From Robiginitalea aurantiaca (lineage in GTDB: Bacteria; Bacteroidota; Bacteroidia; Flavobacteriales; Flavobacteriaceae): DNA of 64,000 nucleotides. The position numbers and the translations under genes are program-made. The DNA is taken from assembly GCF_030380815.1 (NCBI RefSeq), contig NZ_JAUDUY010000002.1, positions 434,001 to 498,000 on the forward strand. The letters are read 5' to 3'. The notes under the pieces were generated by a model, which worked only from the letters and a program-made list of their open reading frames with translations, made no database searches and was not told where the DNA came from. Shown one piece after another: positions 17,023-20,018 of the stretch. Every line of letters begins with the position of its first letter. Positions within the stretch are counted from its first letter, which is position 1.

Positions 17023-17775
17023 TTAGTCAAATGCCTTTATAATGGCTACAAAATCCGCTGCATTCAATGCCGCCCCGCCGATAAGGCCGCCATCTACGTC
17101 TTTTTTGGAAAAGATTTCTTTGGCATTTCCGGGCTTCACACTTCCCCCATATAGAATGGATACGGATTCTGCAGTAGCTTCTGAGAAGGCTGCGGCCAGA
17201 CGCTGTCGGATAAACGCATGCATTTCCTGAGCCTGTTCCGGGGAAGCAGTTTCACCAGTCCCGATGGCCCAAACAGGCTCATAAGCCAGGATGATTTGAT
17301 TCCATGCACTCTCAGGCAGGTTGAATAAGGCCCGACTAAGCTGGCGTTCCACAACTTCAAAGTGTTTCCCTGCCTTTCGGTCGGCCAGTTCTTCCCCAAA
17401 GCAAAAGATCACCCGCATATCTTTCTCAAGGGCTTTGGCTACTTTTTTCTCGAGAAGTTCATCGGTTTCATGAAAGTATGCCCTGCGCTCAGAATGCCCG
17501 AGGATGACCGTTTGAATCCCAATCGAGCGAAGCATATCCGCGGAGATTTCACCTGTATATGCCCCACTGTCTTCAAAATGCATGTTCTGAGCGACGGCTT
17601 CAATGCGAATACCATTGAGCTGATCCACGGCCGATTCCAGGTTTACAAAGGTGGGGGCAACCATCACAAGTGCTCCGGTCTGGGGTAATTCCGCAATCAG
17701 ATCGGATAATAGCGCTTTGGTACCCGCTTTATCCATATTCATTTTCCAGTTGCCTGCTACGATTTTTGTCCTCAT
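17023..17775 (-). CDS. tpiA: Triosephosphate isomerase
   Basis: 250 aa, full length for the family. The active-site residues are all in place: K11 in 'AGNWKMN', H94 in 'ILGHSERR', E166 in 'AYEPVWAIGTG', and the phosphate-binding 'ILYGGSVKP' and 'GGLIGGAAL' loops near the end. It interconverts dihydroxyacetone phosphate and glyceraldehyde 3-phosphate in glycolysis and gluconeogenesis. It sits 12 bases after the DoxX-type gene and 11 bases before prmA, so is part of one transcript. Confidence 0.97.
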   Translation of the reverse strand: MRTKIVAGNWKMNMDKAGTKALLSDLIAELPQTGALVMVAPTFVNLESAVDQLNGIRIEAVAQNMHFEDSGAYTGEISADMLRSIGIQTVILGHSERRAYFHETDELLEKKVAKALEKDMRVIFCFGEELADRKAGKHFEVVERQLSRALFNLPESAWNQIILAYEPVWAIGTGETASPEQAQEMHAFIRQRLAAAFSEATAESVSILYGGSVKPGNAKEIFSKKDVDGGLIGGAALNAADFVAIIKAFD

Positions 17776-17787
17776 GAGACTATGTAT

Positions 17788-19458
17788 TTATTGTTGTTTT
17801 GCTTCAATTTCCCGGACTTCTTCCAGGGTGTATACTTTGTACGCTGTTCCTTCTCCAAAAAGGTCTGCCACGTACTCCTCCACGGATTGGTTGAACCCGG
17901 CCGCTTTGCGTCTGTTATTGACTTCTTCCGGATTTTCAATAGGCCAGATGAGGTTTATTTCCTCCGGGGTATTCATAAAATAAGACCTGCCCTGCGTTCC
18001 GTACTTCTGTGGCAGGCCCTGCCCCATAAGGGAACGGTCAAGCATCATGGCATAAAGGCGATACGGAAGCTCACCGGTCTCAGCAGCGATCTGGATCGAG
18101 GGTAAAAACTCATCAATACGCTCTGAATGCTGAATGACATACCAGGCCGCCTTATTGGTTTCAGGACCGACCAGGCTCTTACCCGGGTAGCCGTGCACCT
18201 GGAGGATCGAATCGATAAGCACCATATTTTGTTGGTCGATTTCAAATTGTTTTCCCCAATTCTCCATGGAGAAGTCGGATCGGTATTTCTGATCCATAAC
18301 CATTATGCTATCAAGGGTGGATTTCAGATCCTCAGGATACCGGTCTGATTCTTCCAACGTCGGAAGGTTCAACTCATCCAGGTCATTGAAATGCAGTTTC
18401 TGGACAATAATCCCATCTTTAAGCCTGAGCAGACCCGGATTGGACCTGACGATCGTCTTCAGGGCGGTCATATCGGTAAAATAAAACGGAAAATCAAGGC
18501 CGTAAGCCTCCTTTAGTGAACCGGTAACCTCCCCTGAAGATGCCGAAAGACCAGCTACAGAATACCCAAGGGTAAGGGCCGAATCGGTATGTTTTTTAAT
18601 CGCTGTAAAAGCTTCCTTTTCACTTTTATCGAGATCATAGGCTACGACCAACAGGAGGTTCCTCCGCTGCAGTATAGAAGATGCCAGGTCCTGGCCATTG
18701 TACTCAATCGTAAAATCGTGAATGGGTGGTTCGTAACCGCTTTGAATCTCCCTGGTACCTTCCAATCCCACAAACTCCCCCTTAACATCGGGGTATTCCC
18801 CAAGCGTAGTGATCACCTTGTCCGTGCCATCAATATTGAATTTCCAGTCGTATTCGTATACCGGCTTGGGAGCGTCTTCGGGGATTACCATACCCTCGAG
18901 AATACTCGCCTGCAGTCTGTAGGGGCGAAAATCCACAACGGGCAGATGGTTCAGCACGTGGTTGCCAAACCAGATACAGGCCAGCAGGGCCATAGCCGTA
19001 GTCCCTAACCTGAAAAACTTGGATCCCAAAGGATTAATATACTTCTCTCCCCAAATCAGGATAAGGATAAGAACCAATAAGAGTACATCCTTGGAAAAGG
19101 ACTCCCAGGGGGTAAGCTTAACCGCGTCTCCGAAACACCCGCAATCGGTAACCTTATTGAAATAAGCCGAATAAAAAGTGAGGAAGGTAAAAAACAGAAT
19201 GGTGGCCAGGAGCGTCCAAAGGGTCAGGCGAATCTGATATCCCAAAAGCAGGGTAACGCCGAGGATGACCTCGAGGATCACTACAAAAAGTGCAATAGCA
19301 AGTGCGTAGGGTTCCAAAAAAGGCAAATCCAGAACAGCCGGGCTGAAGTACTCTTCCAGTTTGAAAGAAAACCCGAGCGGATCATTGAGTTTGATGAGCC
19401 CACTGATGATAAACAAAACGCCCACCGCTATGCGGCAAAATTGCACAAAATACTTCAA
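17788..19458 (-). CDS. BT_3928-type DoxX/MauE-like membrane protein fused to a DUF6624 domain
   Basis: 556 aa. Residues 1-140 form four membrane helices of the DoxX/MauE type ('GVLFIISGLIKLNDPLGF', 'YFNKVTDCGCFGDAVKLTPW' with the typical CGCFG pair). Residues ~160-380 are the periplasmic thioredoxin-like part of the BT_3928 family ('ILQRRNLLLVVAYDL', 'LTLGYSVAGLSA'). From about residue 388 the sequence changes to a DUF6624-like domain: 'MDQKYR', 'IDSILQVHGYPGKSLVG', 'AAWYVIQHSE', 'LYAMMLDRSLMGQGLPQKYG'. Usual family members end before this extension, so this is a fusion. The family's role is unknown; redox or quinone-linked functions are suggested for DoxX relatives. It overlaps the upstream DUF1599 gene by 4 bases. 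Confidence 0.8.
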   Translation of the reverse strand: MKYFVQFCRIAVGVLFIISGLIKLNDPLGFSFKLEEYFSPAVLDLPFLEPYALAIALFVVILEVILGVTLLLGYQIRLTLWTLLATILFFTFLTFYSAYFNKVTDCGCFGDAVKLTPWESFSKDVLLLVLILILIWGEKYINPLGSKFFRLGTTAMALLACIWFGNHVLNHLPVVDFRPYRLQASILEGMVIPEDAPKPVYEYDWKFNIDGTDKVITTLGEYPDVKGEFVGLEGTREIQSGYEPPIHDFTIEYNGQDLASSILQRRNLLLVVAYDLDKSEKEAFTAIKKHTDSALTLGYSVAGLSASSGEVTGSLKEAYGLDFPFYFTDMTALKTIVRSNPGLLRLKDGIIVQKLHFNDLDELNLPTLEESDRYPEDLKSTLDSIMVMDQKYRSDFSMENWGKQFEIDQQNMVLIDSILQVHGYPGKSLVGPETNKAAWYVIQHSERIDEFLPSIQIAAETGELPYRLYAMMLDRSLMGQGLPQKYGTQGRSYFMNTPEEINLIWPIENPEEVNNRRKAAGFNQSVEEYVADLFGEGTAYKVYTLEEVREIEAKQQ

Positions 19459-20018
19459 GCTTCTTCTTTTTTAGGTTCATCCGCTGCGCCCAAATGTATC
19501 AGCGCAAAGACGGCGTAGTTGATCATGTCCTGGTAATTTGCATCAACGCCTTCACTAACCTGGGTAACCCCCTGGTTATTTTCAATTTGCTTTACGCGCA
19601 ATAGTTTTTGGAGGATCAGGTCGGTTAACGAGCTTACCCGCATATCCCTCCAGGCCTCTCCGTAATCGTGGTTTTTCGCCTCCATAAGCGACCTGGTATT
19701 GGCGATCTGGGTATCGTAAAGTTCCAGGGCTTGAGAAGTGCTCAGATCCGGCATTTCCACGACGCCGCGCTCGAGTTGAATCAGGGCCATTACGGAATAA
19801 TTGATAATCCCAATAAACTCGGAACGTTCTCCTTCGTCCACCTTACGGGTGGCGTTTTCTTGCAGACTTCGAATGCGCTGTGCCTTGATAAAGATCTGAT
19901 CGGTCAGGGAAGGGAGTCTGAGAATGCGCCATGCGGCTCCATAATCATTCATTTTCTTACTGAACAACTCTCTGCACTGCCCGATTACCTCATCATAGGC
20001 CCGGTATGTTTCCTTCAT
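19455..20018 (-). CDS. DUF1599 protein (internal duplication)
   Basis: 187 aa built from two copies of one ~80-residue unit: 'LFSKKMNDYGAAWRILRLPSLTDQI' then 'LMEAKNHDYGEAWRDMRVSSLTDLI', each followed by a helix with 'KAQRIRSLQE' or 'KLLRVKQIEN' and by 'GIINYSVMALIQL' or 'DMINYAVFALIHL'. This is the DUF1599 pattern, a Bacteroidota family of unknown function whose acidic and basic residue placement suggests a nucleotide-binding helical fold (inference). It is the first gene of the five-gene minus-strand operon and has the best promoter-like element in this region upstream. Confidence 0.85.
   Translation of the reverse strand: MKETYRAYDEVIGQCRELFSKKMNDYGAAWRILRLPSLTDQIFIKAQRIRSLQENATRKVDEGERSEFIGIINYSVMALIQLERGVVEMPDLSTSQALELYDTQIANTRSLMEAKNHDYGEAWRDMRVSSLTDLILQKLLRVKQIENNQGVTQVSEGVDANYQDMINYAVFALIHLGAADEPKKEEA

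Follow-up and report, generated by a model that had tools for sequence, protein, structure and literature searches.

The window analyzed here is a stretch of 64,000 nucleotides from Robiginitalea aurantiaca (contig NZ_JAUDUY010000002.1, positions 434,001 to 498,000 of the forward strand). One of its genes encodes a BT_3928-type membrane protein that continues into a DUF6624 domain. In window coordinates, this gene, its parts, and its two neighbors are as follows:

17788 to 19458, minus strand: BT_3928-DUF6624 fusion gene, 556 amino acids, TTG start, stop codon included.
19051 to 19455, minus strand: MauE/DoxX-like membrane part, residues 2-136 (Pfam MauE, 80.6 bits; helices from the predicted model).
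19129 to 19143, minus strand: CGCFG motif, residues 106-110, predicted on the periplasmic side from the helix count and from charges judged by eye.
18376 to 18723, minus strand: thioredoxin-like region without CxxC, about residues 246-361 (ResA chains are the best Foldseek matches).
17791 to 18375, minus strand: DUF6624 tail, residues 362-556 (Pfam and alignment; mostly helical in the prediction).
17866 to 18243, minus strand: stretch matched by PF20329, residues 406-531, with QH (443-444), DR (474-475), Q484, YGTQ (486-489), and R517.
19455 to 20018, minus strand: upstream DUF1599 gene (context), a conserved neighbor with a 4-base overlap with the fusion gene.
17023 to 17775, minus strand: downstream triosephosphate isomerase gene, tpiA (context; PF00121, 316.3 bits).

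The original prediction, made from the letters alone, described this gene as a BT_3928-type DoxX protein fused to DUF6624, and domain searches agree. The NCBIfam model of the BT_3928 family (NF045576) matched at 412.7 bits (cut-off, 250), with residues 5-361 aligned to model positions 2-358 of 358, and Pfam DUF6624 (PF20329) matched at 31.2 bits (cut-off, 27), with residues 406-531 aligned to profile positions 39-162 of 173. Against PF20329, two further fused tails submitted by themselves reached 54.7 and 46.3 bits. Inside the BT_3928 part, Pfam recognized MauE (PF07291) at 80.6 bits over residues 2-136 and DoxX (PF07681) at 32 bits. No break separates the BT_3928 part from DUF6624, 195 amino acids lie beyond residue 361, and the strings named beforehand as a DUF6624 signature (HGYPG-K-SLVG, WYVIQHSE, MLDR, and GLPQKYG) are all present in this extension. 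The protein resembles the BT_3928 family in its whole-model match, the CGCFG motif, the near-constant core length, and the upstream DUF1599 gene, whereas the 195 further residues set it apart from the family model. NCBI types NF045576 as "equivalog_domain," which we take to denote a region of a protein, so that extra domains are formally allowed. Its likeness to DUF6624 lies in the score above the gathering cut-off and in the retention of the family-wide invariant residues; the other DUF6624 proteins examined, in contrast, were free and probably exported or joined to TPR-like, S41, OmpA, or TonB_C parts, and none sat on a multi-helix membrane protein.

The TTG start of the fusion ORF overlaps the stop of the DUF1599 ORF by 4 bases, and relatives start at the same site, mostly with ATG. 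A congeneric protein, from Robiginitalea marina (L032), is 72% identical to the window protein over its full length. A DUF1599 relative lies upstream on the same strand at 93 of 98 BT_3928 loci (under a loose distance rule), and the immediate neighbors of fused genes are DUF1599 and either tpiA or an ABC-permease-like gene. In many relatives (e.g., L016, L080, and L099), a gene of about 360 residues, by eye like a peptide ABC transporter permease, follows BT_3928; it is absent at the window locus. Six loci (L030, L067, L069, L093, L107, and L113) form a separate BT_3928 branch in which a small membrane gene, presumably resembling CrcB, comes after the BT_3928 gene.

To survey BT_3928 proteins for the extension, a profile of 38 fused tails was searched in 397 Flavobacteriaceae genomes (237 genera). 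The fusion, with the same junction, was found in at least 45 genomes and 33 genera, a lower bound given that matches were reported down to weak ones. The tail-bearing frames of these 45 genomes are 553-625 residues long and score at least 226 bits, and core and tail share one ORF in all 45. Neither of the outcomes named in advance as contrary to the prediction was found: the DUF6624 match lies above the cut-off, and the extension is far from common to all members, since at least 45 of the 397 genomes have it while 379 have the core. The expected family length of about 360-380 residues also holds for the 33 nonredundant members without an extension, which end 4-20 residues past the point matching residue 361. 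In the window's genus, the tail occurs in nine of ten genomes, in one of which a contig end truncates the fusion. A chance match or a frame or assembly artifact was ruled out, because the tail is in the frame of the core in 45 genomes and the fusion recurs in those nine genomes of the genus and in 32 other genera. The domain architecture is therefore real and widespread in flavobacteria, shared by dozens of genera rather than a one-off.

Free close copies of the tail were found in three family genomes (G276, G016, and G088; 210-228 bits) among the matches listed. In draws from the class (375 genomes) and the order (196 genomes), which record tails and leave BT_3928 presence per genome aside, the fusion was found in the window's own genome alone, and free close copies of at least 210 bits occurred in G772 and G483 (class) and in G891, G811, G910, G878, and G901 (order). 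The remaining frames of 550 residues or more in these draws (G648, G614 twice, and G790) were S41, TPR-like/OmpA, or otherwise non-BT_3928 proteins, and six more frames of 427-503 residues held no BT_3928. Scans of viral_contigs gave no relative, PADLOC and PHROGs gave no family match, and a PDB sequence search likewise found no relative, with a best E value of 0.98 for the protein and no match for the fused-tail profile.

No description of the BT_3928-DUF6624 architecture was found in the literature searched. The BT_3928 core is near-universal in the family, yet its name was not found there, nor was that of PF20329. Searches for DoxX with TlpA or thioredoxin in Bacteroidetes, or with MauE and thioredoxin, returned nothing, and those for MauE, MauD, and disulfide returned none on point among the titles of the matches listed. 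DUF6624 was named by a single source, PMC13097080, whose passage on the domain does not mention a BT_3928 fusion.

The core has the features of a membrane thiol protein. The full-length model, built on five sequences and weak (mean pLDDT, 61.7; pTM, 0.49), has five long helices (residues 2-25, 49-72, 80-99, 117-140, and 147-171) followed by soluble parts. All 98 aligned family members have CGCFG, and core length in the aligned rows is 354-371 residues except in L009 and L034, two entries for one gene that a contig end truncates. Foldseek placed ResA chains first for the full model (1st9_A, E value 2.3e-3, TM-score by target 0.62), a likeness to the ResA/TlpA thiol-disulfide oxidoreductases. 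Unlike these enzymes, however, the BT_3928 proteins have no CxxC beyond core residue 180, in the thioredoxin-like region, in any of the 98 aligned members, and the region is therefore not an active member of the ResA/TlpA type. The multi-helix membrane domain matches both the MauE and the DoxX profiles. MauE acts with a separate thioredoxin-like protein, MauD, whereas here a thioredoxin-like region without CxxC belongs to the same chain. Overall, the core appears to be a membrane thiol protein carrying a probably inactive thioredoxin-fold domain.

The tail was modeled with somewhat higher scores (residues 370-556; mean pLDDT, 73.9; pTM, 0.70) as a mostly helical domain with two short strands. 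Fold searches gave no convincing relative, with a best Foldseek E value of 0.48 and a best VIA-align Z score of 5.6, a value common for helical proteins. Six ExbD sequences match the first part of DUF6624 at E values of 0.03-0.16; an alpha/beta ExbD-like fold is not claimed, because this stretch is modeled as helical, partly at low confidence.

Conservation and substitution rates show whether the tail is maintained. Sixteen columns are invariant among 38 fused tails. Across 37 DUF6624 sequences, seven residues (G, G, H, D, Q, Q, and R) are invariant, all are found in the window protein (G423, G431, H444, D474, Q484, Q489, and R517), and each is kept in 49 or 50 of the 50 fused tails; the tail tree and these residue counts have 50 fused rows since L009 was added. 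D474, Q484, Q489, and R517 are kept in all 50, H444 in 49, and Q443 and R475 in 45. The last two residues are lost in the same five tails, one of which also lacks H444, so that activity is perhaps not retained everywhere. Two of the six loci of the separate BT_3928 branch (L107 and L113) carry a DUF6624 with Q443 and R475 changed. By simple counts, dN/dS ranged from 0.03 to 0.21 in the tail (six congeneric pairs, a seventh not being computable) and from 0.02 to 0.07 in the core (seven pairs), and these ratios are partly rough because several synonymous distances are saturated. The DUF6624 tail is thus under purifying selection and is constrained, though less so than the core. The invariance of H, D, Q, and R suggests that the domain binds a polar substrate or acts on one catalytically.

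Several lines of evidence bear on where the tail lies. From an N terminus judged by eye to be inside (positive-inside rule) and the five helices of the model, we infer a topology in which the C-terminal parts are periplasmic, and the DUF6624 tail is probably in the periplasm. Among free DUF6624 ORFs, 48 of 50 have signal-like N termini (9 with a lipobox), against 4 of 137 TIM/DUF1599 control ORFs, by a script heuristic that allowed the start up to residue 110 in the free ORFs and up to residue 60 in the controls. Within the subfamily of the fused tail, a signal-like or lipoprotein-like N terminus was seen by eye in 10 of 10 free close copies. DUF6624 is also joined to an S41 peptidase (L141), OmpA (L144), and TonB_C (L138), one example each, with Pfam scores above the cut-offs, and S41 peptidases, TonB_C, and OmpA are parts of the cell envelope. 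As far as the sequences tell, DUF6624 in these genomes is an exported domain. By eye, a further S41 fusion is found in L160, OmpA fusions in L171, L172, and L173, and an esterase/ChaN-like part in the frame at 2725 of L170.

Graspetides provide another setting for the domain. In its passage on DUF6624, PMC13097080 reports that the domain is highly frequent in graspetide groups 18, 20, 23, and 42. The fused tail shares the domain name with these proteins, as given in that passage, and differs in that no graspetide gene was found among the immediate neighbors of the fused gene. An example comes from L136 (1384-3116), where the gene immediately downstream of a free DUF6624, itself similar to the fused type and probably exported, encodes an ATP-grasp peptide maturase of the grasp-with-spasm kind (TIGR04192, 296.3 bits; cut-off, 230). 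TIGR04192, the sole synthetase family searched, had no match in the window's genome. A peptide or protein is the candidate substrate suggested by the envelope partners together with the link to graspetides.

The end of the core is variable within the family. The core tree comprises 98 loci, of which 49 are fused, 16 carry an extension of 40-90 residues, and 33 have no extension; these loci were picked partly for their extensions, so that the numbers are not frequencies, short tails were counted in part of the 397 genomes, and G310 is missing from the tree, both of its copies being in the duplicate list. Twelve of the 16 intermediate extensions share a plug-like sequence. Pfam Plug, scanned on seven of these tails, gave 16.3 and 13.2 bits for two (cut-off, 23.9) and nothing for five, and the best PDB profile matches were SusC homologues at E values of 0.06-0.08; "plug-like" is therefore a lead, and these tails were not filed as Plug. 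Tails of this kind, about 75 residues long, were seen in other genera (L019, 2578-2805; L020; L022; L124-L126; and L129-L134). The remaining four extensions are acidic tails of 46-47 residues (L016 and L127), a remnant in G004 (L011), and a divergent one (L128).

In the tail tree, a quick one with long-branch warnings, the 50 fused tails and five free close copies form one group against 38 other free DUF6624 sequences (support, 91). In a Mantel comparison of 49 fused rows, distances in the core correlated with those in the tail (r = 0.67, with none of 2,000 permutations as high). The single tail group and this correlation would be expected if fusion events were few and descent was mostly shared. 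The DUF6624 label nevertheless requires at least 19 changes on the core tree, nine of them forced by well-supported branches, and loss, gain, or exchange is therefore frequent. One loss is visible in G004, of the window's genus, where a tail of 56 residues is, from its sequence, what remains of DUF6624, its start still resembling the first part of the domain. A read-through remnant past the stop in G020 was rejected, as the region runs into tpiA with no DUF6624-like reading. In genus g18, G026 and G277 share 84% identity over the 600 bases before the gene and 81% in both the core and the downstream region, and G026 ends in a 76-residue plug-like tail where G277 ends in DUF6624. In two of seven congeneric pairs (G036/G285, L012/L076; and G253/G409, L098/L114), identity of 90-96% falls inside the tail to 60-70% before rising again downstream, a pattern that suggests that part of the domain was replaced. 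The pair L012/L076 is also about 50% identical just upstream of the gene, where L012 has an extra 0.5 kb or so, and 95% identical beyond.

These observations raise the tentative view, which we consider possible though on balance improbable, that the BT_3928 C terminus is an exchange site. Under diversifying pressure, recombination there would swap interchangeable periplasmic modules or replace parts of them, the core carrying a diverging DUF6624 allele, a TonB-plug-like tail, or no module. If this were true, a housekeeping membrane protein would have a variable sensor or effector end. In 25 of 49 rows, core and tail differ in their nearest relative. In AU tests on the tails of two genera, keeping congeners together was not rejected (P = 0.34 and 0.63), and whole-tail transfer between genera is therefore not claimed. 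The converse tests on the cores rejected two groupings of the tail tree (P = 2.4e-66 and 0.0099), these groups having been named after the tail tree was seen.

The reading that we favor, with a probability of roughly 60%, is that DUF6624 forms an exchangeable, tethered periplasmic module on the conserved inner-membrane redox scaffold BT_3928. Under this reading, a five-helix inner-membrane protein would bear the CGCFG dithiol motif on its periplasmic side, and the ResA/TlpA-like thioredoxin-fold region without CxxC and the mostly helical DUF6624 add-on would sit in the periplasm. The tail subfamily, which also occurs as free secreted proteins, would have joined the end of the BT_3928 core in flavobacteria and would then have been inherited in many genera, being absent or lost in others and partly replaced in some. 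As for the activity that we infer for the tethered tail, it may bind or modify an envelope peptide or protein, substrate and chemistry both being guesses, while the BT_3928 core would supply the membrane anchor and the thiol/disulfide chemistry. What the analysis establishes directly is the architecture, its conservation, the selection on it, and its patchiness, replacement, and loss.

A stricter partnership, in which DUF6624 and the DoxX/thioredoxin-like core do one reaction and the fusion fixes the partner, appears unlikely. It would fit the retention of the fusion in 33 genera, the purifying selection on the tail, the constant junction, and the correlated core and tail distances. However, the distribution is patchy, with the core in 379 of 397 genomes, the fused tail in at least 45, and a free close copy in three among the matches listed; the tail is lost in G004, one of the two g18 members has a plug-like tail in its place, and the free close copies lie in unrelated gene contexts. 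The observed patchiness could mean that the tail has perhaps little to do with the core. The original prediction had proposed that DUF6624 acts in the periplasm together with the DoxX/thioredoxin-like part. Its periplasmic half has become likelier, in line with the predicted topology and the signal-like N termini of 48 of 50 free DUF6624 ORFs, whereas the idea of a partner is weakened by loss, replacement, and patchiness.

Just as doubtful as a strict partnership is passive decoration, in which read-through fusion would add tails (DUF6624, plug-like, or short low-complexity ones) to a tolerant core end, core and tail having little function in common. It is consistent with the variety at this place, where several unrelated tails or none are seen, and with the label changes on the core tree (at least 19, 9 forced). 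The purifying selection on the tail and its 16 invariant columns in 38 tails argue against it, and, since the tail is constrained, "passive" can mean only independent of the core.

Tailoring of RiPPs is usually cytoplasmic. That DUF6624 is a membrane-tethered tailoring or processing enzyme of the RiPP/graspetide type is very unlikely, because, against its frequency in the four graspetide groups and the maturase next to the free close copy of L136, the fused gene adjoins DUF1599 and tpiA or an ABC-permease-like gene, the window's genome lacks a match to TIGR04192, and the free copies look exported. With DUF6624 being, as judged from sequence, an exported domain joined in these genomes to S41, OmpA, TonB_C, or a membrane redox scaffold, the cell envelope becomes the place to look for what it does.

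Two other free, probably exported DUF6624 proteins (L165, 2560-3255; L166, 2707-3408) lie beside phenylacetate degradation genes, an odd place for an exported protein. The neighbors were recognized above the cut-offs as 3-oxoadipyl-CoA thiolase (L165) and PaaZ (L166).
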